This document shows positions 7,550 to 35,207 of a stretch of DNA of 40,651 nucleotides, one piece after another. The notes below the pieces were generated by a model. The model saw only the letters and a list, made by a program, of their open reading frames with translations, was not told the origin of the DNA and made no database searches. The position numbers and the translations under genes are program-made. Each line of letters opens with the position of its first letter. Position 1 is the first letter of the stretch. The DNA lies in IMG/VR virus record IMGVR_UViG_3300046533_000621, positions 1 to 40,651 of that record, one strand, 5' to 3'. Source of the stretch: a virus.

Positions 7550-7662
7550 CGGTGATGTCAATAGGCACTTGCGTGCGATGCGATTGTCGTGCATCGTGAT
7601 CGCGTAGAGCCGAAGTTCCTGTCATCGCCGACGAGCTGACGCGGCACCGATGCCCGACGAGA

Positions 7663-7681
7663 CCGAGCGCACCGCGCTCGG
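7663..7681 (+). promoter_or_regulatory. Strong hairpin ahead of the major capsid gene
   Basis: CCGAGCGC (7663-7670), loop ACC, and GCGCTCGG (7674-7681) form a perfect 8-bp GC-rich stem. No U-run follows, so it is not a standard terminator. It ends just before the capsid gene's GGAG (7685-7688). The 150-base gap between scaffold and capsid (7550-7699) holds no other gene I can support. A role in RNA processing or 5'-end stability of the capsid message is possible. Confidence 0.4.
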
Positions 7682-7699
7682 CTTGGAGCTCGCGACGAC

Positions 7700-8902: not shown

Positions 8903-8917
8903 AAGGCGCCTACGAAC

Positions 8918-9682: not shown

Positions 9683-9697
9683 AAGGATCCGCGCCCC

Positions 9698-10066: not shown

Positions 10067-10088
10067 GCTCGACTAGAAACGGGGTGCG

Positions 10089-10796
10089 ATGTCGTTTCAG
10101 CGCACCGTAACGCAGTTGCTGGGATGGTCGCGCAAGCGCGCCGATCAGGTCGGCAACGACGGGCTCTCCGACGCCGATCTGCAGGCGATTCTCGCGGAGA
10201 ACTACAACACGCTCTACACCGAGGTGTGCGAGAGCGGTCATCGTCATTTCGAATCGACTATGACCGTGTCGGCAAGCGGCGCAGCAAGCTACACGCTGCC
10301 GACCGACTTGCTCGGCACGGTCCGCATCGAGCGTGTGCTCGACACCGCTGGTCGGTCGATGCCGATTCGCGAGATCTCGGTACAGGAGCAAACGTACTGG
10401 CGCGGCCTGACGGGCTCCGCGTATCGCGCCGCGCTGGCCGGACAGCAGCTCTTTCTCCTGCCGACGCCGCCGAGCGGCGACACGTACAAGGTCTATTACA
10501 TCCCGACTCCGCCGGATCTGACGACGAACCTCGGCTCCGACTCGGTCGACATGGTCGTTCCGGCGGGGCTGCGCTACCTCGTCAACCAAACAGCAGCCGA
10601 CGCCAAGGCGCAGGCAGGCGGCGATCCGTCGTACCTCGCGGGCGTTGCCGACAAGGCGCTCGTAGACGTCGTCGAATGGGCGGCGCTGCGCGCGTTCGTG
10701 CAGGCGCCGAGTCCATTCGTCGAGGATTACGACCTCCAGGGCCTCTTGCCCAACTCGTACGACTACGGTGCGGGTTGGTGGAATCGGCCGAAGTAA
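10089..10796 (+). CDS. Head-tail connector (adaptor) protein
   Basis: A 235-residue protein. The N-terminus (FQRTVTQLLGWSRKRAD) and a following helix (DADLQAILAENYNTLYTEVC) resemble gp4/gp6-type adaptor proteins that form a ring below the portal. Then come YTLPTDLLGTVRIERV and YKVYYIPTPPDL, a beta layer characteristic of phage adaptor proteins, and a C-terminal helical region. The gene order capsid, small structural proteins, adaptor, nozzle supports the call. It ends TAATG, sharing a base with the next gene's start. Confidence 0.75.
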   Translation: MSFQRTVTQLLGWSRKRADQVGNDGLSDADLQAILAENYNTLYTEVCESGHRHFESTMTVSASGAASYTLPTDLLGTVRIERVLDTAGRSMPIREISVQEQTYWRGLTGSAYRAALAGQQLFLLPTPPSGDTYKVYYIPTPPDLTTNLGSDSVDMVVPAGLRYLVNQTAADAKAQAGGDPSYLAGVADKALVDVVEWAALRAFVQAPSPFVEDYDLQGLLPNSYDYGAGWWNRPK

Positions 10797-11575
10797 TGGT
10801 GTTTCGCCCGCCAGTATCGCCGCGTCTCGCCGATGCGATCGCCGAGCAGGTTCGTCGCGATCAGCACGACAAGATCGTCGAGATCCAGACCGCGCTGACG
10901 AATCATCCGCCAGGATCCGGCGCCTATCTCGGTCGCGCTCTCGTCACGGCGAGCGCGAACCTGCAACTCGCGGCCGGCTGCAAGTCGGTCGTGATGTATT
11001 TCTGTGGAGGGGGCGGAGGGGGCGGAGGGGCAGCCGGGGGCGCAGGCGGGCTCGCGTTCGGAGACGGCGGGAGCTCGGGCTGGGGCCTGATCGTGTCACT
11101 GACGAGCTCGTTGGTTCTGTCGACCGTCATCGTCACGATTGGCGGAGCAGGCGCGGGCGGCGCCAACACCGGCGGCAACGGAACTGCGGGCGGAGACACG
11201 GTCGTCTCGCTCGCAGGGCTGTCGTGGACCGCGAAGGGCGGCGGCGGCGGCGTCGGCATGGGCAACGGAACGAGCGCGACGCAGAACTCCAACGGCACCG
11301 TTCCGCCGGCCGGCTCCACGATCGACTCGCACGTGCTCGCGGCTCAGGCGCAGTACGGTACGCAAGGCGTCCGCATCTCGGCGGCGCTCGGATGGCCCGG
11401 CGTTGGCGGCTCGGGCATGTTCGGCGCAGGAACGCCGTCTGGCGGCAACACGAGCGGCGCGCAGGGCTCGGGCTATGGCGCAGGCGGCAGTGGCGCCGAG
11501 GTCGTCACGAACGCAAGCGGCCAGATCGGCGGCTTCGGAACCGGCGGTGTATGGGCCGCGGATATGTGGGGCTGA
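10796..11575 (+). CDS. Glycine-rich structural protein
   Basis: A 259-residue protein whose first ~75 residues are ordinary (a helix with ADAIAEQVRRDQ, then a strand KSVVMYFC) and whose remainder is strongly Gly-rich, including eight consecutive glycines at about residues 67-74. Repeated GG-x-G-x-GG blocks separated by Thr/Asn/Ser stretches are the style of polyglycine-II domains found in phage adhesins. It lies between the connector and the nozzle gene, so it should be in the virion. An adhesin tip or tail appendage are both possible. Confidence 0.75.
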   Translation: MVFRPPVSPRLADAIAEQVRRDQHDKIVEIQTALTNHPPGSGAYLGRALVTASANLQLAAGCKSVVMYFCGGGGGGGGAAGGAGGLAFGDGGSSGWGLIVSLTSSLVLSTVIVTIGGAGAGGANTGGNGTAGGDTVVSLAGLSWTAKGGGGGVGMGNGTSATQNSNGTVPPAGSTIDSHVLAAQAQYGTQGVRISAALGWPGVGGSGMFGAGTPSGGNTSGAQGSGYGAGGSGAEVVTNASGQIGGFGTGGVWAADMWG

Positions 11576-11576
11576 C

Positions 11577-14500
11577 ATGCCGCCGAAGCAAGTCATCAAT
11601 GTCCCTCTCGCGGCAGGACTCGACACCAAGAGCGATCCTCGCGCGCTCGACGTGCCGATGCTGTCGATCTGCAAGGATGCCGAGTTTGACTCGATCGGCG
11701 GGCTCGTCACGCGCAAGCCGTATACGAACCAGGGGCTCAACGCCCTTGGCGGAGGAACGGTCTCGAATCCGAGGCGGCTATTCGCGAGCGACAACGAACT
11801 GCTGCTATTCAGCGACACGGGGCTCTATTCGTGGGATGCGCGAGACTCCGTGTGGGCGCTGCGCAGTCCGCATCTTGCCGCAACCGCGCAAGAGACGACG
11901 GTGTTTCAGACGCAGGACGATCAGATCGACACCGATCGCGCCGAACTCGGAAACTCGATCCTCTACGCTTGGTCCAACGGAACAGATGCGTATGTGGGCG
12001 CTCGAGACAAGACGACCGGAGCAACGATCGTGGCGCCGACGAAATTGACGGGCGGAACGCGGCCGCGACTCGTCGCATGCACGACGCGAATCATCCTCTT
12101 CTATGTGACCGCTGGCGGCGGATTGCTTGCGCTTCCGATCGATCCGGCGAACATCGCCACGAGCCTCGCGGGAGGCACGACGACTGTACTCGCGGCCGCT
12201 AACTTCAACTCGTACTACGACGTCGTCCAAATCCCCGGCGCCGATCAGGTGGTCGGCGGATGCCGGCGGCAGACTACGACCAGTCACACGCTGTTCACGC
12301 TGACATCTGGCATGTCTCTCGTCACGTCGACGAAGGCGCGCACGTGCGACGGTCCGATTGCGGTGGCCGCCACGCCAGACGGCATCAAGGTGCAGGTCGG
12401 TCGCGGTAACGGAACGCTTCTAGTGACCGACGTTATAACGCTGTCGGGGTTGGTCGATACAAGCGCGCTGAACGTGACCGTGACGACGATTTCCGGTTCA
12501 TTCAACCAGATCACGGCTGTTCACTCGCCTACTAACATGGTGTTCAGCGCCGGCGTGTATGAATGCAGCTTCGTTTGGTCCGCCACCGAGAATGCGACGG
12601 GGCTAACGACGACTACCGGAACGAACTGGATCCTCACGGACGGTACCGGCAACACCAATAGCATCATGACCATCTTCCCCCATGCCGGCGTCGCCTCGAG
12701 GGCGTTCGTTTGCGGGACAAATCGATTTGTGTGGCTCGCATTCGGACAGACAAGCACTGTCGGCGCGGGGGGGGCCAACACGAGCCCGACCGGGGCGTTT
12801 CAAAACTCCTATTTCTTGGTGCGAATCACCGGGCCGGCGGTCGTCAACGGCAGCAACGGGATTACTGCGTACTGTCCAATTGTCGCCAAGGCCGTGTGCG
12901 AACGCGGCGGAGGATTGTGCCCATCGACAGGCCGACTGCCAGGAGTCGCGATCACGTCCGGGTCAACCACGACGTCCGTTTGTTTGACGGTGCGTCGCCG
13001 CGTTCCTGTTGGTACCGGCACAGGCTCCGGCTCCAGCGGCGTCGGCGCGGTCGTCATGCGAGCGGTCGGACGAGGCGCTGTCTCGAGCGTCGCCGGTCTG
13101 GCCATCGGCGGATCGGGCAACGTCGCCGTACAGCCAATGCCGACAGCGTCATCGCTGCGCACGCCGCAGGATGTAAGCGTTACGATCGATGACAACGCAG
13201 GACGTCGCGCCGTTCGACTTGGGCCGACCGTCTACATGCCGGGCGGGGAGATCTCGCAATACGACGGCGGCGCCATTGTAGAGGTCGGGTTTCACGTCTA
13301 CCCGTTCTATCTCGACACGACGACGACCGGCGGCGGTTCCGTGGCCAACGGCCTCTACGCATACAAAGAAACGTACAAGTGGACAAACCTACAAGGCGAC
13401 ATCGACCGATCGACGACCGCTATCGTTCTCAACTCCACAATGAGCGGCGGTCCGCAGTCGTTCAGCGTGGTGATGGTGACTACGTCGTTCACCAAGAAGA
13501 GCGCCGACTATTCAGCTCAGTATGGCTCTCCGTTCGGAACGCGTTCGGTCACGAACATCACCGAGGAACTATGGCGAACGCTTGTCAACCCACTAGCCGA
13601 CTCGCCGTTCTATCTCGTCACCTCGCAGACGCCAGGAACCGCCAATCCGAACAAGTACCAAGAGAACGTCGCCAGCGCTGGAGCGAACGTCGGTTCACAA
13701 GTTGTCGATGGCGAGGCAGATACTACTGTTGGAGCCAACCAGTCGAATCCAGAGAATTCGCTTGTATTGCCCAACCTGGCACCGCCCGCTGCGTCGATTA
13801 TTGCGGCGACCGACCTTCGCATTTTCCTTGCTGGCATTGCCGGCGATCCGGATACGGTCTGGTACTCGAAGCAGCGCAACACCGGCGAGGTCGCAGCATT
13901 CAGCGACGCGCTCACCTTCTCCGTGCCGAAGGCCGGCGGCAAGATCACGGCGCTCTCGTTTTTGAACGAGACCCTCGTCGTGTTCCGCGAGCGCGCGATC
14001 TATGCGTTCGCCGGAGACGGATTCGACAACCTAGGCCGCGGTAACAACTACGGTCCCGCGCGGATCGTCTCGCTCGAGGTGGGTGCGGTTAACGCGGAAT
14101 CGGTCGCGCTCATCGCCGCCGGCCTGATGTTCAAGAGCTCGCGCGGCTGGTTCGTGCTCAATCGCGGATGGGGCATCGACTACGTCGGTCAAGGCGCGGC
14201 AGCGTATGACTCCGAGGTTCCTGTCTCGGTGCAGGTCGTCGGCGGGCAACAGCAGGTGCGCATCGCCACAGCGAATCGCGTGCTGATCTACGACACGCTA
14301 CAAAAGCTCTGGGGCGAGTGGTCCATCTCTGGCGTGCTCGATGCGGTCGTGTGGAATGGGACATACGTCTATCTCACGTCGGCGGGCGTGTTCCAGCAGG
14401 CCGCAGACTTCTCGGGCGGCACGAACTACGGAATGGACGTCGAACTCGCGTGGCTCAAGCCGGCGGGGTTCACCGGCCGTTTCGACGTCCGCAACATCAT

Positions 14501-15107
14501 GCCGCTCGGCGAGTTCCGCTCGGCGTTCAACCTGCGGCTTCGCGTGGCCCGCAACAATCTGCAGGACGGCTCCGGAAACTCGGCGTACTTCGACGACCGG
14601 ATCAAGACGCCAGAAACGACGGTCGGCTCGCGAATGCAGGTCCGCCACGGCCCTTCCATCCAAAGCGGTTTTGAGTCCATCAAGGTGCGGCTCACAGCGA
14701 CGGGCACGCTTGCGACGCTCGCGATCACGTCGGGCGGCGCCACGGTTACGTTCACGTCGAAAAGGGCGGGGACGCTAGGCAACGCGCTGTCACTCGCTCA
14801 TACGTTGACGTCGCAAGCGGTTCCGTCTGTCGCCGACTCGGGCGGCAATACGATCACGCTATCGGGACTGGCGACGCTCACGTTTCAGCAGGTCGTAGAC
14901 GCCACGAACCTTGGTAGTCAGCTCGTGTCGGCGGCGTTGACCGCGGGATCGGGCGCTACGTCGTTTGCGCTGACGGCGTTCACTGGCTCACCGACTGGCG
15001 GCGTCGATTGGCCGACTGGCGAAGCAATGCGGTTGACGGCTGTCGGCTTTGAGGTGCAAGGCGGCGAGGGCATGTTCGGCCTACTGCCACAGGCTCAGAC
15101 AGGATAG
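11577..15107 (+). CDS. Tail nozzle-like protein (gp12 / tubular B type)
   Basis: This 1176-residue protein follows the connector module. The start INVPLAAGLDTKSDPRALD, followed by A-E-F-D-S-I-G-G-L-V-T-R-K-P-Y, resembles the opening of podovirus nozzle proteins (T7 gp12-like: long beta-propeller proteins with a G-L-x-x-R-x-P motif). The body is beta-rich and Thr/Gly-rich throughout. Segments such as LNETLVVFRERAIYAFAGDGFDNLGRG (about residues 795-820) fit propeller blades, and the last ~130 residues form a more repetitive Thr/Ala-rich beta region. It should cap the tail tube and control DNA release. The ATG at 11577 is 1 base after the previous stop. Confidence 0.7.
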   Translation: MPPKQVINVPLAAGLDTKSDPRALDVPMLSICKDAEFDSIGGLVTRKPYTNQGLNALGGGTVSNPRRLFASDNELLLFSDTGLYSWDARDSVWALRSPHLAATAQETTVFQTQDDQIDTDRAELGNSILYAWSNGTDAYVGARDKTTGATIVAPTKLTGGTRPRLVACTTRIILFYVTAGGGLLALPIDPANIATSLAGGTTTVLAAANFNSYYDVVQIPGADQVVGGCRRQTTTSHTLFTLTSGMSLVTSTKARTCDGPIAVAATPDGIKVQVGRGNGTLLVTDVITLSGLVDTSALNVTVTTISGSFNQITAVHSPTNMVFSAGVYECSFVWSATENATGLTTTTGTNWILTDGTGNTNSIMTIFPHAGVASRAFVCGTNRFVWLAFGQTSTVGAGGANTSPTGAFQNSYFLVRITGPAVVNGSNGITAYCPIVAKAVCERGGGLCPSTGRLPGVAITSGSTTTSVCLTVRRRVPVGTGTGSGSSGVGAVVMRAVGRGAVSSVAGLAIGGSGNVAVQPMPTASSLRTPQDVSVTIDDNAGRRAVRLGPTVYMPGGEISQYDGGAIVEVGFHVYPFYLDTTTTGGGSVANGLYAYKETYKWTNLQGDIDRSTTAIVLNSTMSGGPQSFSVVMVTTSFTKKSADYSAQYGSPFGTRSVTNITEELWRTLVNPLADSPFYLVTSQTPGTANPNKYQENVASAGANVGSQVVDGEADTTVGANQSNPENSLVLPNLAPPAASIIAATDLRIFLAGIAGDPDTVWYSKQRNTGEVAAFSDALTFSVPKAGGKITALSFLNETLVVFRERAIYAFAGDGFDNLGRGNNYGPARIVSLEVGAVNAESVALIAAGLMFKSSRGWFVLNRGWGIDYVGQGAAAYDSEVPVSVQVVGGQQQVRIATANRVLIYDTLQKLWGEWSISGVLDAVVWNGTYVYLTSAGVFQQAADFSGGTNYGMDVELAWLKPAGFTGRFDVRNIMPLGEFRSAFNLRLRVARNNLQDGSGNSAYFDDRIKTPETTVGSRMQVRHGPSIQSGFESIKVRLTATGTLATLAITSGGATVTFTSKRAGTLGNALSLAHTLTSQAVPSVADSGGNTITLSGLATLTFQQVVDATNLGSQLVSAALTAGSGATSFALTAFTGSPTGGVDWPTGEAMRLTAVGFEVQGGEGMFGLLPQAQTG

Positions 15108-15117
15108 GATTCAACCC

Positions 15118-16074
15118 ATGGGCGGATTCATCGACGGACTCGACCCGGGCAACTGGGGCAAGCAAGGCACTGGCGGCAACTTCTGGGGCACCTTCGACCC
15201 GGGCAACTGGGGTATCGGCAAGGCGCTCGGGATTGGCGACAACGATCCGGCGAACCAGTATCGCAATCTGCTCGTCAACTCGGGGCAGGGCGCGCAGGGA
15301 TTCGCCGGCTCGGCAACCGGCCAGTTCAACCAGGACTCCGCAGCCGCACAGGCTCAGCGGCAGTTCCTGATGGACCAAATGCAGGGCAAGAACTCGGTAT
15401 CGGCCGAGCAGCTTCGCCAGGGCCTCTCGCAGCAGCTCGCGCAACAGCAGGCGATGGCGGCCGGCGCGGCACCGCAGAATGCCGCGATGGCTGCACGCAA
15501 TGCCGCGATGAACATGGGACAGGCGAGCTACGGAATGGCCGGCCAGCAGGCGATTGCTGGCCTGCAGGAGCGCCAGAACGCAGCGAACCAGCTCGCACAG
15601 CTCAACCTCGGCATGCGCGGCCAAGACGTGCAAGGCGTGCTCGGCGGCTACGGTGCGGCGAATCAGGCATACGGCTCCGCGCTCGGCACGCCGCAGCAGA
15701 CGTTCGGCACGATGATCGGCGGCGCGCTCGGTGGACTCGCGGGCGGCGTCGGCAAAGCGATCTCTGACGAACGCCTCAAGCGCGACGTTGTTGCCGAGGA
15801 CGATGACGACAGCAAGACGCGCACGATGCTCAAGAACCTCAAGGCGTATTCGTTCAAGTACAAGGACGAGCGTTTCGGCAAGGGCGAGCAGTTCGGCGTC
15901 ATGGCGCAGGACATGGAGAAAGCTGGCCTTGGTCACGCCGTCGAAAACACGCCCTACGGCAAGGTGGTCGATGGCGCCAAGACAGCGACGTCGGCGCTCG
16001 CGCTGACTGCCTCTCTGGCCAAGCGTCTCGACGCGCTCGAGGGCAAGGGTCGCCGCGCCGGGTCCGAGGACTAA
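15118..16074 (+). CDS. Ejection-type virion protein with a C-terminal S74 chaperone-like domain
   Basis: A 318-residue protein. Residues 1-60 contain repeated DPGNW motifs. Residues about 65-190 are Gln/Ala/Met-rich and helical, like proteins ejected with the DNA. From S216 the sequence reads S-D-E-R-L-K (216-221), and further on G-V-M-A-Q-D (about 262-267) and a terminal coiled coil (TASLAKRLDALEGK). These match the peptidase S74 intramolecular chaperone domain, which trimerises a fibre and usually cleaves itself off before the Ser, with Lys in the active site. The domain on an ejection-like protein rather than a long fibre is unusual. Confidence 0.75.
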   Translation: MGGFIDGLDPGNWGKQGTGGNFWGTFDPGNWGIGKALGIGDNDPANQYRNLLVNSGQGAQGFAGSATGQFNQDSAAAQAQRQFLMDQMQGKNSVSAEQLRQGLSQQLAQQQAMAAGAAPQNAAMAARNAAMNMGQASYGMAGQQAIAGLQERQNAANQLAQLNLGMRGQDVQGVLGGYGAANQAYGSALGTPQQTFGTMIGGALGGLAGGVGKAISDERLKRDVVAEDDDDSKTRTMLKNLKAYSFKYKDERFGKGEQFGVMAQDMEKAGLGHAVENTPYGKVVDGAKTATSALALTASLAKRLDALEGKGRRAGSED

Positions 16075-18716
16075 TGGCCGCAGAGCAAACGACCGACGAC
16101 GATCAGCCGCTACCCGTTCCCGCGGGACCGTCGGCGTTTGACCAGTTTCCCCCGTCGAACTGGTACGACGCTAACGGCCAGTGGATCGATCGGCGCACGT
16201 CGGCCGGCGCGCAGGAGCCGATCGAGGCTCAATGGGAGACGCCTGCCCCGGGCCACGAAAAGCCGTCCGGCGAGCGTAAGAAGGAAAAGAAGGCCGACGA
16301 GGAGACGCCGCGCCCGGTGTCGCCGATGGGGTGGCCGCCGACGCCGTTTACGCCACGCCCGGCATCGCAGCGCATCGGCATGGGCGCGCTCGAGGAATCG
16401 CCAGCGGCTCGCGATCCGCACGATGCGCTAATGTCTCTACCGCCGGACGCGCCGCCGTTGCCGTTGCCGCCGACCGCGCAGCCGCACGATCTCGGAACGA
16501 TGCCCGAGGAGGCCGCCGGTCCGGCTCCGGTTCCCGATGCGATCTCCGGCGGACAGATTCAGCCGGCCAGCGTCGCCGAAGCGCTCGGGCAAACCGGGCA
16601 GCATATCGCGCCGGTCGAGCGCAACGTCGTCACGCCAGACCAGCAGGTTGCCGCGTTTGATCGGCTGTCGCCCGAAGAGCAAAACGCGCGGCTACAGCGC
16701 GTGCAGGACGCGCACGAAGACGCCGCGTACCGACAGGCATACGCCGCGGCGCCGCCGGCCAACCGCGCCGGCATGCTCACGCCGGACGAGCGCGAGGCTG
16801 CGCGCACGAACGCGCGACGCGAACAGGCACGGCACGAGAAGCTCGCGAACGACACGCTCGTTGCCGAGCGCGAGCGCAGTCAGTCACTCCTGCTCGAGCA
16901 GGCCGCTCGGTCTCGCGCCTACGAGGACAACCGCCGGAAGCGGCTCGACATCGAGCAGAAGATGCTCGAGCTCGCCAAGCAAAAGCCGGTCGAGACGCTG
17001 CCGATCGGGCGCAGTATCGCTGGCGTCATCGCGTCCGCCGTCGGCGGCTTCTTCTCGCACTACACCGGCGGACGGAATCTCGCGCTCGAGGGCTTCGAGA
17101 AGTCGATCGATCGCCACGTCGCGGCGCAACAGCAGGGGTTCGCGCAGCAGCGGCAGGCGCTGGCGCTACAGGGGCAATCGCTCAACGAGCAAGAGGCAGA
17201 GGACCAGCACGCGTTCTCGGACAAGAACATCATTCGCGCGCAGGTCTACGACAGCGCGATCCGCCAGGCGCAGATCGAGGCGCAGCAGTTCGATCCGCAC
17301 GGCACCGCAGCGGCCGAGGTGAACAAGTTCGTCGCAGACACGGCGGCGAAAAAGCAGCTTGCGATGCAAGCGTGGCAGGAGAAAGACCTCAAGGACCGCA
17401 CCGACGCGTATAAGGCGCAGTGGGAGGGAGCGGCCAAGCGAGCGACGGTGCAGAAGGAGCTCGCCGGTCCGCACGGCACGCCGACGCCAATCAAGGGCGA
17501 GATCCTCAATCCGTTCACGGGACAGATGGAGAACTACGGCGGCGGGCCGGTCGGCGGCGGCGGCGGCGCGGGCAATACGAAGGCGACGGTCTCGACAGGA
17601 ATCTACACGCCGTATCGCGACGAGAGCGGCAACTTCATCGAGATCAAGGGCACGCATCCGATCGACGTCAAGGGACACGAGAAGGAGTTCGCCGGCCTGT
17701 CGACGCGCATCCAGGGCTACGGACACGAGCAGGACTATTTTAAGCAGCTAAAGGACATCGGCGCGAAGATCGACTATCACAAGAATGTTCTCCACGACTG
17801 GGATAAGACGCAGGCGACGCTCGTCGACGAATACGACAAGGCCACGCACGCGCTTGTCGTCTACTTGACCAAGGACCTCGGCGACAAGCTCACACAGGGG
17901 CAGATCGACGAGCAGAGCAAGCGCATTCCCGCGCTCACGAAGTGGCTGTCTCAGGTCGACGTGAAGGCCGAGATCGAGCACGCGCAAGAGATGTCCGACC
18001 GCGATCTTGAGCGCGACGCCAACGTATTTGGCATGGACGTTCACCCGATGATCCGCATTGCGCAGAAGTATCGGGCGCCAGCGGCGGAGCCCGAATCGAA
18101 GGATCGCGTACTTGCCGCCCAGGGCGCGCTTGCTAAGGCGCGCTCGCCAGAAGAGAAGCGCGCCGCGCAGGCCGAGCTCGATGCGGCGAACAAGGCCAGC
18201 GCAGCGGAAATCAAGGATACCGCCGACGCAGGGCGCGCTATCGAGACCCAGTCGAAGATGGCCAAGCTCGGCGGCCTGTGGCCGACGTTCGAGCAAGAGG
18301 GGATGCCCGCGGACGTGCGGGCGACGATGGAGTCGCACCGAACCGCGACAGAGTCATACGTGCGCGCGCTTCACGAGACAGAGCGACTCAAGGCGTCGCC
18401 GCCAAAGCCGACCGGTCAAGTCGGCGTCGATGCGCGCGCGATGGAGGAGCACGAGAAGAAGCTCGCGAAGGCGGCGATCGCCGCTCGCGATGCGCGCGAC
18501 GTGGTCCGCCACTCCGCGCTCGATGTCCTCGAGTCCGCCGCAGACAACCTCGACGATTTGCCTGCCGCTAAGCGCAAGGCGCTCGAGGCCATCGCCGACG
18601 AGCACGGCAGCGCTCCGGGCCTTTCCCTCTCTAAGAGGATCAAGCGTCTCGTGAACAATGATCCCGCCGTTTGGTCGCGCGTATACGACCTTCTGAAAGT
18701 CCAGGAGCGCAAGTAG
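16074..18716 (+). CDS. Internal virion / DNA ejection protein, 880 aa
   Basis: Residues 1-200 are Pro-rich and disordered. Residues about 200-460 are long charged helices rich in Gln/Arg/Ala (EREAARTNARREQARHE, QQQGFAQQRQALALQ) around a short hydrophobic patch (SIAGVIASAVGGFFSHY, about 312-328) that could insert in a membrane. After a Gly-rich linker (~500) come further helices. Large helical, Ala/Gln-rich proteins downstream of the nozzle are the ejection proteins of podoviruses, which form a conduit across the host envelope. It overlaps the previous stop (TAATG) and abuts the next gene. Confidence 0.75.
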   Translation: MAAEQTTDDDQPLPVPAGPSAFDQFPPSNWYDANGQWIDRRTSAGAQEPIEAQWETPAPGHEKPSGERKKEKKADEETPRPVSPMGWPPTPFTPRPASQRIGMGALEESPAARDPHDALMSLPPDAPPLPLPPTAQPHDLGTMPEEAAGPAPVPDAISGGQIQPASVAEALGQTGQHIAPVERNVVTPDQQVAAFDRLSPEEQNARLQRVQDAHEDAAYRQAYAAAPPANRAGMLTPDEREAARTNARREQARHEKLANDTLVAERERSQSLLLEQAARSRAYEDNRRKRLDIEQKMLELAKQKPVETLPIGRSIAGVIASAVGGFFSHYTGGRNLALEGFEKSIDRHVAAQQQGFAQQRQALALQGQSLNEQEAEDQHAFSDKNIIRAQVYDSAIRQAQIEAQQFDPHGTAAAEVNKFVADTAAKKQLAMQAWQEKDLKDRTDAYKAQWEGAAKRATVQKELAGPHGTPTPIKGEILNPFTGQMENYGGGPVGGGGGAGNTKATVSTGIYTPYRDESGNFIEIKGTHPIDVKGHEKEFAGLSTRIQGYGHEQDYFKQLKDIGAKIDYHKNVLHDWDKTQATLVDEYDKATHALVVYLTKDLGDKLTQGQIDEQSKRIPALTKWLSQVDVKAEIEHAQEMSDRDLERDANVFGMDVHPMIRIAQKYRAPAAEPESKDRVLAAQGALAKARSPEEKRAAQAELDAANKASAAEIKDTADAGRAIETQSKMAKLGGLWPTFEQEGMPADVRATMESHRTATESYVRALHETERLKASPPKPTGQVGVDARAMEEHEKKLAKAAIAARDARDVVRHSALDVLESAADNLDDLPAAKRKALEAIADEHGSAPGLSLSKRIKRLVNNDPAVWSRVYDLLKVQERK

Positions 18717-22168: not shown

Positions 22169-22175
22169 GGAAGCC

Positions 22176-22487
22176 ATGAACACACCGCCGTTCGGAACCC
22201 CCACATGGGCTCGCCAGCTCCACAACGAGCTCACCGAGCACACCAAGGAAGACCGGCAGCTGTTCCGCTCGCTGCACGACGGGCAGGCCGAGCTCCAGGT
22301 CGAGACCGGCAAACAGACGGTCATGCTCGCCGAGCTCCTCGAGGACAGAAAGGTGCGGCGCGAGGTCGATGCCAAGCGCGCCGGCACCGAGATCGAGACC
22401 AAGGCGAAGATCAGCGTGGCGTGGAAGACGTCCGCGCTCGCCGCGCTGTCAGCCGTCCTCGGTTGGCTCGTCCACCACTTCATGTAG
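22176..22487 (+). CDS. Small membrane-anchored coiled-coil protein of the lysis region
   Basis: A 103-residue protein with GAGGAA before the ATG. Residues 10-75 are a charged coiled coil (LHNELTEHTKEDRQLFRSL, VMLAELLEDRKVRREVDAK), then one hydrophobic C-terminal segment (about 80-100, WKTSALAALSAVLGWLVHHF). Soluble N-terminus with a C-terminal anchor fits a pinholin- or spanin-associated protein, or a virion-associated membrane protein. The exact role is open. Confidence 0.7.
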   Translation: MNTPPFGTPTWARQLHNELTEHTKEDRQLFRSLHDGQAELQVETGKQTVMLAELLEDRKVRREVDAKRAGTEIETKAKISVAWKTSALAALSAVLGWLVHHFM

Positions 22488-22489
22488 CC

Positions 22490-22741
22490 ATGGCCGAGAA
22501 TCCCGACATCGACCGCCATGACATCGCGGATCTGCGCGACTCGATCCGGTCGCTGGCCGTTGTCGCGTCACGGCTCGAACAGACGCTGCAGCGCGGGATC
22601 GGCAGCCTGCTTGCCGCGCTCGAGCAGATCGCCACGAACACCGAAGGACTTCCCGCGCTGGTCGAGGGCTTGCGTTCGCACGCGAATGGCAGCCAATCTA
22701 TCGGCGGATCCGCTAATCTATCAGCATCGGAGGAAACATGA
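22490..22741 (+). CDS. Hypothetical coiled-coil protein, 83 aa
   Basis: It starts at ATG 22490, two bases after the previous stop. The sequence is mainly one amphipathic helix (DIADLRDSIRSLAVVASRLEQTL and LLAALEQIATNTEGL), with a Ser-rich tail and no membrane segment. It overlaps the holin-like gene downstream by 4 bases. Placement suggests a partner of the holin or of the anchored protein upstream. Confidence 0.65.
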   Translation: MAENPDIDRHDIADLRDSIRSLAVVASRLEQTLQRGIGSLLAALEQIATNTEGLPALVEGLRSHANGSQSIGGSANLSASEET

Positions 22742-23019
22742 CGGAAGGACTACAGTCGGGCGCCGCGCTCACTGCCGCAGGGCAGCTCCACGCCGCCGTC
22801 GATCTCGCCAAGTCAGGAATCTTGACGCCAGTCCCCACTCCAGGGTGGCGCACGTCGGAGTTCTGGATGAAGCTCGCCGCGCTTCTCCTGACGGCGCTCT
22901 ACGCGAGCGGCGTCATCCCGACGAGCGGCGTCGGCGCGCAGATCGCCGCGATCGCCGCGACCATCCTTGGCGCGGTCGGCTACACGGTCGGGCGCTCGCT
23001 CGTCAAGGCGGGATCGTGA
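22738..23019 (+). CDS. Holin candidate
   Basis: A 93-residue protein with two hydrophobic segments (about residues 44-61, MKLAALLLTALYASGVI, and 67-87, AQIAAIAATILGAVGYTVG) separated by a short turn, and a basic C-terminus. Size, two membrane spans and a charged tail fit a class II holin, which would open the inner membrane and release the endolysin. GGAGG lies 5 bases before the ATG. It overlaps genes on both sides by 4 bases. Confidence 0.75.
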   Translation: MTEGLQSGAALTAAGQLHAAVDLAKSGILTPVPTPGWRTSEFWMKLAALLLTALYASGVIPTSGVGAQIAAIAATILGAVGYTVGRSLVKAGS

Positions 23020-23219
23020 GGGAGGAGTTCCATGCGCTGAACCCGGTCGACTTCTGGCTGATTCGCCGGAAGCTCGATGCCGCCGTTCGGCTCGACGGCG
23101 ATCGGTTCGAGTACATGCTCGTCGGTCCCGACAAGGACCACCTCCGCAAGGTCTACAGCGATCCGGACTGCCCGCCTCGAGCCGACGTCGAGCAATACCT
23201 GAGGGAGATCTGCCAATGA
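23016..23219 (+). CDS. Detached partial copy of the major capsid protein, 67 aa
   Basis: Starting at GTG 23016 (GTGA overlap) this encodes 67 residues that align with major capsid residues about 286-340: LNP-V-D-F-W here against LNP-I-N-F-W in the capsid, then a shared basic helix, F-E-Y-M-L against F-Q-Y-L-M-L, and an identical YSDPDCP. The capsid side has a ~5-residue insertion. It ends in a new helical tail (ADVEQYLREI). The frame is intact and overlaps its neighbours at both ends, so it looks like a maintained gene rather than debris. Function is unknown. Confidence 0.8.
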   Translation: MREEFHALNPVDFWLIRRKLDAAVRLDGDRFEYMLVGPDKDHLRKVYSDPDCPPRADVEQYLREICQ

Positions 23220-23581
23220 CCAAACAGCAGCCATGGGTCGCGCTCGTGCTGGCACTCCTCGTCGCCTGTTCCGCCTCGGCCCGCCAGAAGACGATCGCGA
23301 CCACGTTCGCGGCGACCGACGTTGCTCGCGCGACGTTCGTTGCGTTCGACGAAGCGCACCAGAAGGCGATCGTTGCGAAGGCGACCGACCGCGCCAGCGC
23401 GGAGAAGGCGTTCGCCGAGTACTACGACACGCGCCAGAAGGTGGTCGATACGTTCACGGTCACGTACCGCGCGATCGCAGCAGCTGCGGTCATCAACACC
23501 GATCAGAGCCTATCCGCGATGCTTCAGGCCGCGGTGATTCTCAGCGGGGCGCTCAAGGCGCTCGGAGTGGCGGTGCCATGA
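23216..23581 (+). CDS. Predicted lipoprotein of the lysis region
   Basis: A 121-residue protein whose N-terminus is a type II signal peptide: a short polar start, a hydrophobic run (WVALVLALLVAC) and a lipobox L-V-A-C with Cys 18. The mature part is helical and charged, with a hydrophobic C-terminal stretch (about residues 101-121). In this position an outer-membrane spanin is the first suggestion, although known o-spanins are usually shorter and Pro-rich. It overlaps its neighbours by 4 bases on each side. Confidence 0.7.
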   Translation: MTKQQPWVALVLALLVACSASARQKTIATTFAATDVARATFVAFDEAHQKAIVAKATDRASAEKAFAEYYDTRQKVVDTFTVTYRAIAAAAVINTDQSLSAMLQAAVILSGALKALGVAVP

Positions 23582-23850
23582 CGCTATCGGTCCGGCTTGC
23601 TCAACGAAACGACCAACTCGTCGCGCTCGGCCCGGTTCCGTCGTGGTGGCGCTTCCGTGCGCGCGCCGCATGGATCCGCCGCTACCGCGCGATCATGGCG
23701 ATGGACCTCAGCGCGACGGCCGAGATCTACCGCGCGATCTACTCGACCGCGGCCATCGAGGAGCTTCAGAAGTCGCGAGTCAACTACTTCGCGCTGAAGG
23801 TGGCGGCGCCGTCGGCATCGCCGCTGTACGAAACGGAGGCGTCCAAGTGA
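23578..23850 (+). CDS. Hypothetical protein, 90 aa
   Basis: The N-terminal half is basic with aromatic residues (VPSWWRFRARAAWIRRYRAI, about residues 20-39), possibly an amphipathic, membrane-touching helix. The second half is an ordinary helix (TAEIYRAIYSTAAIEELQ). No membrane span of full length is seen. It is coupled to both neighbours by 4-base overlaps. No family recognised. Confidence 0.6.
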   Translation: MTLSVRLAQRNDQLVALGPVPSWWRFRARAAWIRRYRAIMAMDLSATAEIYRAIYSTAAIEELQKSRVNYFALKVAAPSASPLYETEASK

Positions 23851-24041
23851 CCGAGGAACTCATCCTCGCCGGCCTAACGGCGATCGAAGCGATCATCAGC
23901 GCGATCAAGAGCGCGCAGAGCGGCGATACCAACGCGGCGACCGTGCTCGTGCATCTGCAGGCGCTCAGCGATGCGCTCGCGGCCAACGATGCGGCGGCGA
24001 AGGCGAGCCTCGATGCGAAGTTCCCGACGGGGGCGGCGTGA
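23847..24041 (+). CDS. Small Ala-rich helical protein, 64 aa
   Basis: The GTG start at 23847 overlaps the previous stop. The sequence is a helical hairpin candidate (LILAGLTAIEAIISAIKSAQ, then TVLVHLQALSDALAANDAAAKASLDAK). The first helix is moderately hydrophobic and might associate with membrane, but it is not a clear span. Function unknown. Confidence 0.6.
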   Translation: MTEELILAGLTAIEAIISAIKSAQSGDTNAATVLVHLQALSDALAANDAAAKASLDAKFPTGAA

Positions 24042-24274
24042 CCGGCAACACGCGACTTCGAGATCTGCACGACGAGATCGCGGCGAGCAATGCAGCCACG
24101 GCGGACGCGTTCAACCGCTTCTATGAGCTGCTCAACCGTGAGATCCGCGCGGCGAATCTCTACTACGACGAGACGCAACGCCACCTTGACGAGCATGGCT
24201 ACTGTCACTGCGATGAGCCGGAGCCGCGCGAGGTCGTCGGCCTCGGCGACTACATCCCCAGGAATAAACCATGA
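24038..24274 (+). CDS. Hypothetical protein with a Cys/His-containing tail, 78 aa
   Basis: The GTG start at 24038 is coupled to the previous stop. A helical N-terminus (LHDEIAASNAATADAFNRFYELLN) is followed by HLDEHGYCHCDE, a small cluster of His and Cys that could bind a metal only weakly or in a dimer. It overlaps the 28-residue membrane gene downstream. No family recognised. Confidence 0.6.
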   Translation: MTGNTRLRDLHDEIAASNAATADAFNRFYELLNREIRAANLYYDETQRHLDEHGYCHCDEPEPREVVGLGDYIPRNKP

Positions 24275-24357
24275 CGCTCGACATCTTCACGGCGCTCGTG
24301 TTCGCGATCGCGATCCTCATGGCGATCTACGCGGTGAGCAAGGTGCTGGAGCGGTGA
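24271..24357 (+). CDS. 28-residue single-span membrane miniprotein
   Basis: ATG 24271 to TGA 24357 encodes 28 residues, of which about 18 form one hydrophobic segment (IFTALVFAIAILMAIYAV) followed by a short charged tail (KVLER). Its ATG overlaps the previous stop (ATGA) and its stop overlaps the next GTG (GTGA), the same coupling as all its neighbours, which is the main reason to accept so short a gene. It could modulate the holin or anchor a lysis complex. Confidence 0.55.
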   Translation: MTLDIFTALVFAIAILMAIYAVSKVLER

Positions 24358-24749
24358 CGGTCGTGACGGTGTCCAGCTTCAGCGCAGCGCTCAAAGACTA
24401 CTATCCGGCGCCGGGCACGCGCATCAAGCAGTACGTGGTGGACACGTATCGCGAGAACAAGTGGGAGCGCGAGACGTGTCCACGCTTCACGATGCCAGCG
24501 CACGACGACAACACGGACGCGCCCTGTCGCAACGCGATAGAGGCGGTGCCGTGGACGTACCTCGATCACGACTGCTGCTACTTCTGCGGCGACCACCACG
24601 AGCAGCTGCGCGCGCTGCCGGAAGTGCAGGCATGGCTCGCGGAGCGCGCGAAGCGACCGCCCATCGAGAGCGACCGCTCGAAGTTCAGCGACGAGATCGC
24701 GCCGGAGTTGTCGTTCGCGGCGCACCCGCTGCTGGCGAAGGTGCCATGA
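24354..24749 (+). CDS. Cys/His-rich protein before the endolysin, 131 aa
   Basis: The GTG start at 24354 gives a GTGA overlap; in-frame GTGs at 24363 and 24369 are alternatives. Residues about 40-85 contain C-P-R-F, a later C-R-N, then D-C-C-Y-F-C-G-D-H-H, a probable zinc site. The C-terminus is helical. No lytic motif is seen. It is translationally coupled to the endolysin that follows. Confidence 0.65.
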   Translation: MTVVTVSSFSAALKDYYPAPGTRIKQYVVDTYRENKWERETCPRFTMPAHDDNTDAPCRNAIEAVPWTYLDHDCCYFCGDHHEQLRALPEVQAWLAERAKRPPIESDRSKFSDEIAPELSFAAHPLLAKVP

Positions 24750-25366
24750 GCGACCCGCGCCCCTGCTCTGCGCCTGAAGCCGTTGCTCGCGCCTTGCGCT
24801 GCGTCGCCTCGAAGAAGGGGCAGTACGTGCTCGGCACCGGCGACTACCGGCCTGGCTCGAGCTTCGGCCAGCTCGTCGACGAGCCGTGGACCGATCGCGG
24901 CGACGGCACGGTCGGCTCGGACTGCGCCGGCTTCGCGATCTCGTGGTGCTACAAGTTGCGCCGTCACCGGCCGGGCTACAACGTCGGACCGTGGAGCTCG
25001 TGCAGCGACGACATCAACTGCAACAGCGCGCTCGAGGACGCCCAGCACGCCAAGGACTGCTTCGCGCTCGTCGACGATCAGACGCCGCTGCCGGGTGACC
25101 TGCTGCTCTATCCGAGCTTCACGCTGGCGACCAGCGATGGTCCCAAGCAGTTCATCGGGCACGTCGCGATCGTGGTTGGCGTGTCGCGCGTCCAGGCGTG
25201 GGATGCGAGCTCGCCGCGGTGGGACCTGCTCGACGTCGCGCAATGCCACGGGCCCAACGGATTCAAACCCGGCGCGGTGGCGACGGATGGGAGCATCTGG
25301 CTACGGCACGACGTCGTGTGGCCGAAGCCGGAGCACCGGAGCCATCTGATACGGGCGTTGCCTTAG
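24746..25366 (+). CDS. Endolysin (NlpC/P60- or CHAP-like peptidase)
   Basis: A 206-residue cell-wall peptidase. Catalytic Cys60 lies in S-D-C-A-G-F-A-I-S-W at the start of a helix, and His139 in F-I-G-H-V-A-I-V-V-G, with the typical P-G-D-L-L-L-Y-P strand just before. This Cys, then PGD, then G-H-V-A order is that of papain-like NlpC/P60 and CHAP enzymes, which cut peptide bonds in peptidoglycan. There is no signal peptide, so it would need the holin. Extra cysteines (66, 86, 92, 105) are notable. It closes the late unit, and its stop overlaps the convergent gene. Confidence 0.82.
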   Translation: MSDPRPCSAPEAVARALRCVASKKGQYVLGTGDYRPGSSFGQLVDEPWTDRGDGTVGSDCAGFAISWCYKLRRHRPGYNVGPWSSCSDDINCNSALEDAQHAKDCFALVDDQTPLPGDLLLYPSFTLATSDGPKQFIGHVAIVVGVSRVQAWDASSPRWDLLDVAQCHGPNGFKPGAVATDGSIWLRHDVVWPKPEHRSHLIRALP

Positions 25367-32138: not shown

Positions 32139-32336
32139 TTACAGCCCCTCTGCCTTGTTGAGCATCTCGGCGATAAGCACGTTGAGCGTGACGCCGCGCT
32201 TGAGCGCGCGCTCGCGCAGGCGGTCGTACGTCGCGCCGGTGACCGAGAACTGGTAGTTGCGGGCGGCCTGCTGTTTGCGGCGACGCTCCATCACGTCCGC
32301 GTACGCCTCGGCGAGGTTGTCGGCGGGGGTCTTCAC
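32139..32336 (-). CDS. Ribbon-helix-helix-like protein, 65 aa
   Basis: GTG 32336 gives a GTGA overlap; a longer form from 32354 would overlap more. After a helical, basic N-terminus comes Y-Q-F-S-V-T-G-A-T-Y-D-R-L-R-E-R-A-L-K-R-G-V-T-L-N-V-L-I-A-E-M-L, written here residue by residue: one strand, a helix, a G-V-T turn and a second helix. This is the layout of Arc/CopG repressors and small antitoxins. No toxin-like partner is obvious next to it. Confidence 0.65.
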   Translation of the reverse strand: MKTPADNLAEAYADVMERRRKQQAARNYQFSVTGATYDRLRERALKRGVTLNVLIAEMLNKAEGL

Positions 32337-32533
32337 GACTGCACCGCCCCGCACCGCTCCGCGATCTCCGCGTCGATCTGCGCGATCTCGTACGCGAGCA
32401 TCTCGTGCCCGAGCCGGTCGCCTTTGTGCAGCGACAGCGACTCGCGGACCAGCTCGCGGCGGTCGGCGAGGAGATCGGAGAGGGTGCGGGGAGGTTCGAG
32501 GTCGGGGTGGACGAGGAGGAGCGGGCCGGACAT
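32333..32533 (-). CDS. First gene of the leftward early unit, 66 aa
   Basis: A small protein starting MSGPLLLVHPDLEPP, with two helices (TLSDLLADRRELVRESLSL and GHEMLAYEIAQIDAEIAERCG). Its ATG at 32533 lies immediately beside operator 1, with no room for a normal ribosome site except a weak GAG within the operator, so its message may be leaderless. No domain is recognised. Confidence 0.65.
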   Translation of the reverse strand: MSGPLLLVHPDLEPPRTLSDLLADRRELVRESLSLHKGDRLGHEMLAYEIAQIDAEIAERCGAVQS

Positions 32534-32534
32534 G

Positions 32535-32553
32535 CTCTACAAATTATGTAGAG
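32535..32553. promoter_or_regulatory. Operator copy 1
   Basis: CTCTACAAATTATGTAGAG is a perfect palindrome with 7-bp arms (CTCTACA / TGTAGAG) around AATTA. It covers the -10 region of the leftward promoter. It is the best match of three related 19-bp sites. Confidence 0.75.
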
Positions 32554-32569
32554 CGGGCCTCCGAGTCAA
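32541..32569 (-). promoter_or_regulatory. Leftward early promoter
   Basis: On the minus strand TTGACT (complement of 32564-32569) is followed after exactly 17 bases by TAATTT (complement of 32541-32546); CATAAT with a 15-base spacer overlaps it. RNA would start at about 32533-32536, at or within 3 bases of the first ATG. The -10 box lies inside operator 1 and the -35 box lies between operators 1 and 2, so repressor binding would block it. Confidence 0.6.
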
Positions 32570-32576
32570 GATGTCT

Positions 32577-32595
32577 CTCAACAAATCATGTAGAG
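32577..32595. promoter_or_regulatory. Operator copy 2
   Basis: CTCAACAAATCATGTAGAG differs from copy 1 at two positions. Its centre is 42 bp from that of copy 1, four helical turns, so two bound repressor dimers would lie on the same face. It overlaps the stop codon of the repressor candidate gene. Confidence 0.72.
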
Positions 32596-33074
32596 GACGT
32601 CTTCCATGGCATCTTTCGCGGCGACTGACCGGGCATCCTCGTCACGTGCTCCCACTTCTCGGCGCGCTCGCGGATCTCTCGGAGCATGTCGACGAAGTAC
32701 TCGATCGGCGCAAACGCATGAAACGCCTCGCCGGCTTCGGCCCATTCGCGAAACCACGGTTGCTCTGCTCGGAGACGGATCGGCAGCGGCGTAATGTCGG
32801 CGGCCGGCGGTGGCAGCTCCGATCCCGCATCGGCGAGGACCTGATAATAGCGAACCAGTCGAGCCGGGGCGATGTCGCCCTTGCGCATGCGCCCGAACTG
32901 CACGTGGTGGCTGTCCGATTCGTAGCCGGCGCGCACGGCCCAGTCCGCCGGTTGGATGCCGAGGCGCTCGGCCTCGCTGATCATTTGGTGGATGTAGTCG
33001 ATGGTCGGCAGCAAGGTGCTCGGGCGCCTTTCGTGCTTCTGCGATCGGTTGGTTGTTGGTTTTTTCCGTGTCAT
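32586..33074 (-). CDS. Repressor candidate with helix-turn-helix
   Basis: A 162-residue protein encoded between two operator groups, the place of a lysogeny repressor. After a basic N-terminus (MTRKKPTTNRSQKHERR), residues about 25-80 form helices with I-S-E-A-E-R-L-G-I-Q-P-A-D-W-A-V-R-A-G-Y, H-H-V-Q-F-G-R-M-R-K-G and L-V-R-Y-Y-Q-V-L-A-D, an XRE-type helix-turn-helix layout. The C-terminal half (PWFREWAEAGEAFHAFAPIEYF) may dimerise. There is no LexA-like Ser/Lys peptidase, so induction would not be by RecA-stimulated self-cleavage. Whether this or the Cro-like protein reads the operators is inferred. Confidence 0.68.
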   Translation of the reverse strand: MTRKKPTTNRSQKHERRPSTLLPTIDYIHQMISEAERLGIQPADWAVRAGYESDSHHVQFGRMRKGDIAPARLVRYYQVLADAGSELPPPAADITPLPIRLRAEQPWFREWAEAGEAFHAFAPIEYFVDMLREIRERAEKWEHVTRMPGQSPRKMPWKTSST

Positions 33075-33102
33075 GCGTCAACCGTCGCGCCGCGTCATTC
33101 AA

Positions 33103-33114
33103 CAATCGCGATTG
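33103..33114. promoter_or_regulatory. 12-bp palindrome in the immunity region
   Basis: CAATCGCGATTG is a perfect 12-bp palindrome between the repressor start and the rightward promoter. It does not resemble the 19-bp operators, so it may bind a different regulator or lie in the repressor gene's own promoter. Confidence 0.35.
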
Positions 33115-33119
33115 CTGGC

Positions 33120-33148
33120 TTGCGTTGCCTCAACAGAAAATGTAGACA
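33120..33148 (+). promoter_or_regulatory. Rightward early promoter
   Basis: TTGCGT (33120-33125) and TAGACA (33143-33148) are separated by exactly 17 bases. Both boxes are weak matches. RNA would start at about 33155, the G of the Cro-like gene's GTG, suggesting a leaderless message. The operator copy 3 covers the spacer and most of the -10 box. Confidence 0.5.
33129..33147. promoter_or_regulatory. Operator copy 3
   Basis: CTCAACAGAAAATGTAGAC keeps the outer CTC-ACA and ATGTAGA of the two leftward copies, with changes in the centre and the last base. It lies on the rightward promoter, so one regulator could control both early units. Confidence 0.68.
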
Positions 33149-33154
33149 CAAGGT

Positions 33155-33373
33155 GTGAGCCGCCGTCCTCCCCCGCTGCACGAGCGCATCAAGGAGCGCG
33201 TTACGGCGGCGGGCTTTACGCAGGGCGACCTGGCCGAGCGACTCGGCTGGCACGAGATGAAGGTCTGGCGCGTCTTGAACGGGCGCACTGCGCTGTCTGC
33301 TGACGACGTCGAGATCTTCGCGCGCCTCCTGCGCGTTCCCGTCGGCGATCTCTACGACGCCAAGGCGAGCTGA
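33155..33373 (+). CDS. Cro-like XRE-family regulator
   Basis: A 72-residue protein with a complete helix-turn-helix: A-G-F-T-Q-G-D-L-A-E-R-L-G-W (about 19-32), recognition helix H-E-M-K-V-W-R-V-L-N-G-R (about 33-44), then LSADDVEIFARLLRVPVGDLY, the classic end of XRE/Cro domains. It is the first gene of the rightward unit, as cro is in lambda, and probably competes with the repressor. It starts at GTG 33155; AAGG lies too close to act as a normal ribosome site. Confidence 0.83.
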   Translation: MSRRPPPLHERIKERVTAAGFTQGDLAERLGWHEMKVWRVLNGRTALSADDVEIFARLLRVPVGDLYDAKAS

Positions 33374-33375
33374 CG

Positions 33376-33549
33376 ATGACGCCATCGTCCCTCGCCGCAT
33401 CGGTGCGTCCGGACTCGAACTGCGACGTTTTCGCACGCTTTTTATTTGCCGTGCGCGGCCGCGTGTCTGCTCGTGGTGATTCGCCGCTTGCGGTCCCGCA
33501 ACAAATTGTGCCAGGGTGCCGCCGCTCGTCGAGAAACGGGGTTGCGTGA
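33376..33549 (+). CDS. Possible small protein, 57 aa
   Basis: ATG 33376, two bases after the Cro-like stop, opens a 57-residue frame that ends with a GTGA overlap onto the next gene. The sequence is mixed (FARFLFAVRGRVSARG in the middle, basic tail) with no recognisable domain. A hairpin plus T-run within it could instead be an early terminator, so this stretch may be untranslated. Confidence 0.38.
   Translation: MTPSSLAASVRPDSNCDVFARFLFAVRGRVSARGDSPLAVPQQIVPGCRRSSRNGVA
33421..33447 (+). terminator. Weak hairpin and T-run after the Cro-like gene
   Basis: TGCGA (33421-33425) pairs with TCGCA (33431-33435) around a 5-base loop, followed after three bases by TTTTTATTT (33439-33447). The stem is short, so termination would be partial, similar in place to the early terminator behind lambda cro. 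No antitermination gene is recognised nearby. Confidence 0.3.
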
Positions 33550-33968
33550 GCGGACAGCTCGCGATCTCCTTCCCTGCCGAGTACGTCGGGAAGCTCGCAT
33601 GGGAGCGTCAGCTCGACGCGATCCGCGCGGCCGTCAAGCACCTCGGACCCAAAGAGGTCGCGTTCACGCTCGACGTCGCGGCGACGCAGCTCCACGACGC
33701 GCTCAACGAGCGCGAGCGCAAGCACTGGTACGCGCACTGGACGCACGTTCTCAAGGCGATGCTCGTCGCCAAGCGTGACGCGACCGCCGACGAGATCCTC
33801 CGCGCGATCTCGGATGCCGATGTCGAAACGACGCCGTTCGCGCTCGTCGACGCCGAGCCGCTGACCGCCGAGGAAGAGAGCGCGGCGCTGCGTCGCGAGC
33901 TCGCGAAGTTCGGCGACGCGGGCAAGGCGGCGATCGATCGCGTGAAGCGGCGCGGAGCGAAACGATGA
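33546..33968 (+). CDS. Early hypothetical protein, 140 aa
   Basis: GTG 33546 is chosen over 33516 because AAACGGGG sits just upstream and the GTG overlaps the preceding small frame. The protein is helical: LAWERQLDAIRAAVKHLG, VAFTLDVAATQLHDALNERERKHWYAHWTHVLKAM (about residues 38-72), and a C-terminal coiled coil. The first 60-70 residues could form a DNA-binding fold, but no specific motif is seen. It lies in the replication module. Confidence 0.68.
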   Translation: MSGQLAISFPAEYVGKLAWERQLDAIRAAVKHLGPKEVAFTLDVAATQLHDALNERERKHWYAHWTHVLKAMLVAKRDATADEILRAISDADVETTPFALVDAEPLTAEEESAALRRELAKFGDAGKAAIDRVKRRGAKR

Positions 33969-34240
33969 CCTGCACCGCCTCCATCCTCGCGCTGTTCCCC
34001 TCCGACGACGTCGTGCTGACGCGGACGGAGATCCTGGCGCGCCTCGGCCTACCGCCGTTGAACGTCGACGTCGCGCTGACGCACCTCGTGAAGCGCGGCC
34101 GGCTGTTCCGGATCGCCCGCGCCGAGTACGCGCGCACCGCCAGCGCTGCGACTGCGGTTGTCCGGCTCGAGAGGCGCGTCTCCGAGCTCGAGGCGCAGGT
34201 CGCATTCCTGTTGAAGTCGTTCGTCGCGGGGGCCGCGTAA
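33965..34240 (+). CDS. Winged-helix protein with C-terminal coiled coil, 91 aa
   Basis: Residues about 8-55 (LFPSDDVVLTRTEILARLGLP, NVDVALTHLVKRGRLFRIARAEYAR) follow the helix, helix, recognition helix and wing pattern of small regulators. Residues about 62-85 form a leucine-zipper-like coiled coil (RLERRVSELEAQVAFLLK) for oligomerisation. It would bind DNA as a dimer or higher multimer. Its position between early genes suggests a role in replication control or delayed early regulation. Confidence 0.7.
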   Translation: MTCTASILALFPSDDVVLTRTEILARLGLPPLNVDVALTHLVKRGRLFRIARAEYARTASAATAVVRLERRVSELEAQVAFLLKSFVAGAA

Positions 34241-34781: not shown

Positions 34782-35207
34782 ATGCGCAGTCCAATTGAGA
34801 TCCGGTTAACGGACGCGATCGTCGATGCGCTGGAGCAGCGCGGTATTGACGAGCTGTTCGACGAGTACCTTCAGTTTCCGGTTGAGTCGTATCGCATCGA
34901 CATCATGCTCGAGGGTACGTACGGCCGCCTCGCCGTCGAGTGCGACGGCTTCGACTTCCACGATCGCACGAAGCAGCAAGCCGCATACGACCGGTCGCGC
35001 GATCGGCGGCTGTTGATGCTCGGCATCCCGACGATCCGTTTCACCGGCAGCGAGATCGTCCACGACGATGCGCGGTGCGCGGCCGAGGTCATCGATCTGT
35101 TCATCGAACTCGAGGAGCGCGCACGCCTGCTCTTCGAGGCGCTCAGGGCGAGATGCGATCGACAGTACGACGCCGACCCGTCGGCGTTTCGTATGGGGAA
35201 GATCTAA
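34782..35207 (+). CDS. DUF559/Vsr-like PD-(D/E)xK endonuclease
   Basis: A 141-residue protein with a restriction-endonuclease-like core: Y-R-I-D-I-M-L (D40), L-A-V-E-C-D-G (E53, D55), then K-Q-Q-A-A-Y-D-R-S-R-D-R-R-L-L-M-L-G-I-P-T-I-R-F-T-G-S-E-I. This order is that of DUF559 and very-short-patch-repair-like nucleases. It sits directly after the previous stop and shares a base with the replication initiator's ATG (TAATG). A role in recombination, host DNA degradation or replication is possible. Confidence 0.78.
   Translation: MRSPIEIRLTDAIVDALEQRGIDELFDEYLQFPVESYRIDIMLEGTYGRLAVECDGFDFHDRTKQQAAYDRSRDRRLLMLGIPTIRFTGSEIVHDDARCAAEVIDLFIELEERARLLFEALRARCDRQYDADPSAFRMGKI

Follow-up and report, generated by a model that had tools for sequence, protein, structure and literature searches.

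A candidate lambda-type immunity switch with its own operator sequence in an apparently undescribed phage lineage

In lambda and its heteroimmune relatives, exchange of the immunity cassette changes the operator sequence. Lambdoid immunity regions run in the order leftward unit, PL/OL, repressor, PR/OR and cro, with one near-palindromic operator sequence repeated at both early promoters, on either side of the repressor gene. In the telomere phages N15, phiKO2 and PY54, the immB region comprises CB/CI, Cro, OR1-3 and OL1-2, with the two OL sites at a second early promoter, before repA, and a 16-bp operator of the form T-A-N10-T-A (PMC4488713, PMC4997575). CB of phiKO2 binds all five operators and Cro just the one adjoining the repressor gene (PMC4997575), and cI and cro of PY54 are transcribed as leaderless mRNAs (PMC4488713).

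We analyzed a whole virus record of 40,651 bp, hereafter the window. It contains terminase, portal, tail and integrase genes, the integrase matching PHROG 1 (E 3e-58), and these genes make a temperate tailed phage the most likely identity. Searches with the portal, the integrase and the early region turned up no close match among known phages, and the integrase, followed as a route to the host, gave one 25% match from which no host was named. The lineage is, as far as the phage records searched extend, undescribed and without close relatives. As shown in Table 1, the immunity region is laid out as a leftward unit, PL with two sites, a repressor-position gene, PR with one site and a divergent Cro-type helix-turn-helix (HTH) gene adjoining the repressor-position gene.

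Table 1. Features of the immunity region, with positions in the window. Promoters are predicted, and functional names are those suggested by position and similarity.
Feature	Position	Strand	Sequence or evidence
66-aa first gene of leftward unit	32333..32533	-	89% in relative
Putative operator site 1	32535..32553	-	CTCTACATAATTTGTAGAG (minus strand); CTCTACAAATTATGTAGAG as reported for 32535-32553
Exchanged immunity cassette	32537..33965		Without nucleotide similarity to relative
Predicted PL	32541..32569	-	TTGACT (32564-32569), 17 nt, TAATTT (32541-32546), 7 nt to ATG 32533
Putative operator site 2	32577..32595	-	CTCAACAAATCATGTAGAG
162-aa gene at CI position, candidate prophage repressor	32586..33074	-	Coding by codon usage
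Separate palindrome	33100..33117		CAACAATCGCGATTGCTG; between repressor-position and cro starts; unrelated to the 19-mers
Predicted PR	33120..33148	+	TTGCGT (33120-33125), 17 nt, TAGACA (33143-33148), 6 nt to GTG 33155
Putative operator site 3	33129..33147	+	CTCAACAGAAAATGTAGAC
72-aa Cro-like protein	33155..33373	+	HTH_31, E 6.3e-12

The first-pass annotation had described three copies of a 19-bp operator around the immunity region, two of them on the leftward promoter 42 bp apart and one on the rightward promoter. All three are exactly there, with the consensus CTCWACA-N5-TGTAGAS and centers at 32544, 32586 and 33138. Site 1 is almost a perfect palindrome, agreeing with its own reverse complement at 16 of 19 bases, and site 3 is weakly palindromic (10/19). 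Sites 1 and 2 flank the -35 of the leftward promoter: site 1 overlies the predicted -10 and start region of PL, with its end 1 bp from the 66-aa gene's ATG, and site 2 lies upstream of the PL -35 and includes the 162-aa gene's stop codon. The rightward promoter, on the cro side, has site 3, which falls between the PR -35 and the Cro-like start codon and ends 7 bp before the GTG. All three sites are in the upstream regions of two divergent early units.

This locus shares the lambdoid gene order, the placement of one near-palindromic operator on both early promoters around the repressor gene, and the alteration of operator sequence when the whole cassette is exchanged. It differs from lambda in that the operator sequence is unrelated, the convincing sites number 2+1 rather than 3+3, OL and OR are ~0.55 kb apart with no rex genes between them, and the repressor-position protein has no recognizable CI homology. 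Whereas CI and Cro compete at OR1-OR3 of lambda, one convincing site is present at PR here, and for that reason we regard the switch as working like lambda OR without being a copy of it. The earlier description of a lambda-like switch with a different motif is well supported for the layout and for the operator set, above all by a relative (below) in which the motif is swapped with the repressor and cro genes and the site positions are kept; its single regulator acting on both early units is a hypothesis. The likeness to N15, phiKO2 and PY54 lies in the small number of short palindromic operators, which are shared out between the repressor-cro region and another early promoter, and, for PY54, in early mRNAs that are probably leaderless here too. 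However, the sites do not follow T-A-N10-T-A, and no sequence relation was found; the 162-aa protein had no match, and hence no CB homologue, among the phage records searched. In contrast to the stoperators of cluster A mycobacteriophages, which are many, asymmetric and genome-wide, the record has three near-palindromic sites, and many scattered asymmetric repressor sites were not found in it. The sites most likely serve a cassette-encoded regulator as an OL/OR set in the style of lambda and N15, ordinary in kind, with its own specificity and in an undescribed phage lineage.

Across the 40,651-bp record, CWACA-N4-ATGTAG matches at sites 1-3 alone, and the whole-genome scan proposed with the first-pass annotation thereby excludes many equal matches elsewhere. 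With up to three mismatches allowed, the full pattern gave six matches, namely the three sites each read on both strands, against a mean of 0.66 in shuffles, none of which (0/100) reached six. Because this pattern was composed from the matches themselves, we added less biased tests. The best three-copy family of 19-mers in 32400-33400 was exactly sites 1-3, and its score was reached in 1 of 300 dinucleotide shuffles. Higher-scoring repeat triples occurred in 3 of 38 other 1-kb stretches of the genome; hence, repetition by itself is only moderately unusual and is not our main argument. Prediction from single sites is stronger: a weight matrix built from site 1 alone ranked the other two sites second and third across the record, as did a matrix built from site 3 alone. 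The palindromy of site 1 and the placement before both early units likewise carry more weight than repetition. Two further candidates were rejected, the best fourth site at PR (33098-33116, -4 bits) and, as evidence, an extra site upstream of the next gene (33497-33515), whose 3.7 bits were below the shuffle maxima.

With a small leftward protein as query, we found a sole relative in the collections searched, IMGVR_UViG_3300046517_001909 (L007/G001; 40,372 bp), and searches for further lineage members with four flanking and cassette proteins returned the same relative alone. Proteins flanking the cassette are closely similar in the two phages (89% identity for the first leftward gene and 86% for the AbiEi-like rightward gene), and nucleotide similarity ends at 32536 and resumes at 33966. 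The relative's repressor-position gene has no BLASTP similarity to the 162-aa gene. Its product gave weak matches to phage repressor PHROGs (best 4e-5), and a fold search placed DdrO, SinR and 434 lambda-repressor-like HTH domains on top, none of them significant. The Cro-type HTH protein also differs (35% over 49 aa). The CTCWACA (CTCTACA) motif is absent from the relative, which has its own palindrome, TCGG-N5-CCGA, in four copies (one mismatched), two at PL and two between the repressor and cro. No other place in its genome scores as high as these copies, and a matrix built on O1 and O3 alone ranks O2 and O4 third and fourth. In this heteroimmune relative, the only one available, the operators change along with the repressor and cro genes.

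The two phages are alike in their flanking genes and promoter scaffold, and their operator offsets nearly coincide. With the C of CTTG as origin, the center of the first PL site is at +26 in both, that of the second at -16 here and -15 in the relative, and that of the PR site at +19 in both. They differ in the repressor-position gene, Cro, operator sequence, number of convincing PR sites (one here and two in the relative) and an extra 52-aa ORF in the relative. That ORF (L007:4303-4461), which has no family match, stands between the repressor-position gene and PL, a position like that held by the rex genes of lambda. Spacing of the PL sites is 42 bp here and, taken between half-site centers, 41 bp in the relative. 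The first-pass annotation had read this spacing as exactly four turns; the 42 bp stands, but the phasing is not base-exact, and the comparison indicates that about four helical turns are kept at PL without conservation of the exact base count. As a natural pair, the two cassettes offer a case in which operator, repressor and Cro specificity would be exchanged as a unit while promoter geometry stays fixed.

On the minus strand, PL runs from site 2 through CTTGACT and a 17-nt spacer to TAATTT within site 1, followed by 7 nt and the ATG, a geometry that matches the relative without gaps. PR, on the plus strand, runs through CTTGCGT and site 3 to the GTG of the Cro-like gene. The hexamers of PR are poor sigma-70 matches, those of neither promoter are strong, and a strict sigma-70 scan detected neither, so the case for both promoters is built on comparison with the relative. 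Across the four promoters of the two phages, the distance from CTTG to the start codon is 37, 37, 36 and 37 nt, which suggests that both early mRNAs are probably leaderless and start at or beside the start codon. In the relative, the TTG that begins the longest Cro frame is itself the -35, and the GTG at L007:3729 is the better start, giving the shared CTTG geometry. CTTGAC with a start codon at such a distance occurs only twice in the window, the second time antisense inside a gene.

We consider it highly probable that the three 19-mers serve as operators in a lambda-type immunity switch with a cassette-encoded binder, for which the 162-aa protein is the likeliest candidate. The mode of action that we infer, including repression, the identity of the binder, cooperativity, the leaderless start and the target of Cro, would be as follows. 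A dimeric regulator from the same cassette would bind CTCWACA-N5-TGTAGAG; that it is encoded in the cassette is made probable by the change of operator sequence together with the cassette, and the 162-aa protein is favored as prophage repressor because of the position and orientation of its gene. At site 1 the regulator would cover the PL -10 and start, at site 2, about four helical turns upstream, it would give cooperative or reinforcing binding, and at site 3 it would sit between the PR -35 and the start codon. In a lysogen, this would turn off the leftward unit (the 66-aa gene, small genes and an AAA ATPase, towards the integrase) and the rightward unit (the Cro-like, AbiEi-like HTH, nuclease-like and methyltransferase genes), with the early mRNAs of both units starting at or beside the start codon. 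Counting against this reading are the restriction of the comparison to one relative, the missing second PR site, the poor PR hexamers together with the negative strict scan, and the 162-aa protein, which has no detectable HTH homology and no significant Pfam, PHROGs or PDB match. A single-sequence AlphaFold model of this protein was unusable (pLDDT 40), and no homologues were found in phage records or in a scan of genome contigs. Three viral loci matching it in the C-terminal 27 residues alone were not accepted as relatives.

If the 162-aa protein is the binder, it would represent a repressor family missed by present profile libraries. A broader proposal, which we offer tentatively and think somewhat doubtful as a whole, is that a constant CTTG/leaderless scaffold in this lineage receives palindromic operators of wholly unlike sequence at fixed positions with each cassette exchange, and that the 162-aa protein belongs to such an unprofiled family. 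In any case, the locus provides a concrete operator sequence, a promoter map and a heteroimmune partner for a lineage without close relatives in the phage records searched.

The main binder could instead be the 72-aa Cro-like HTH protein, with the 162-aa gene as an accessory (exclusion or modulator) gene rather than the repressor. Of the two proteins, it alone has a recognized DNA-binding domain, its best PDB matches are to lambda CI, and its matches in known phages are distant CI-like HTH proteins annotated as CI or HTH repressors; a close search of viral contigs returned no homologues. Like the 162-aa gene, cro is also exchanged together with the operators in the cassette swap. However, in the relative a repressor-position gene with weak repressor PHROG matches is present in addition to Cro, which makes two regulators per cassette the more natural reading, and the 162-aa gene has the position and orientation of cI. 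We therefore think this assignment unlikely.

Considerably less probable is a site for a host regulator, of the SOS or global type, used by the phage on both early promoters. Host regulators too typically have a palindrome over the promoter -10, but a host site would be expected to persist between phages with closely similar flanking genes, whereas the corresponding places in the relative carry another motif, which changed along with its repressor and cro. The sites here also number three, all bordering the cassette. Still less credible are RNA-level elements, such as hairpins near the start codon or terminators, in place of protein sites: site 1 could fold a 7-bp stem beside the ATG, and a palindrome occupies this place in the relative too, but site 3 is conserved in sequence despite its weak palindromy, the PL transcripts as inferred would exclude site 1, and a terminator scan found nothing at the sites. 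Chance repeats in a low-GC stretch, the least probable account of all, draw on the comparable triples in three other kilobases and are opposed by the shuffles, by the genome-wide recovery of sites from single-site matrices and by the matching architecture of the relative.

Several further observations concern the surroundings of the proposed switch. Since palindromes as good as the one at 33100-33117 are common in this GC-rich record, its assignment as a possible site for Cro or a second regulator, by analogy with phiKO2, is a guess. The segment at 33486-33515 (GCTTGCGGTCCCGCAACAAATTGTGCC) resembles the PR -35/site-3 region (GCTTGCGTTGCCTCAACA), with 15/18 identical, and precedes the next gene of the rightward unit (33516 or 33546); it could be a decayed duplicate of the promoter-operator, but the score it obtains with the matrix does not exceed chance. 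The rightward early unit encodes an AbiEi-antitoxin-like HTH protein (33965-34240; PF13338, E 3e-6) and a REase_MTES_1575/DUF559 nuclease-like protein (34782-35207; E 2e-11). A paired-motif scan of viral contigs gave 26 loci, mostly coding-looking repeats in lower-GC phages, and at none of them is there a gene for a protein related to the repressor, Cro or flanking proteins. A leftward 71-aa protein (32139-32354) has no family match, and its C-terminal half looks ribbon-helix-helix-like by eye; in the relative, its N-terminal part is fused to the downstream 62-aa protein and the suspected ribbon-helix-helix domain is missing. Finally, pieces of 22170-25365 are 92-97% identical in nucleotides to the relative, compared with only 67-77% for the matching pieces of 4593-17089, a contrast that points to mosaic exchange.
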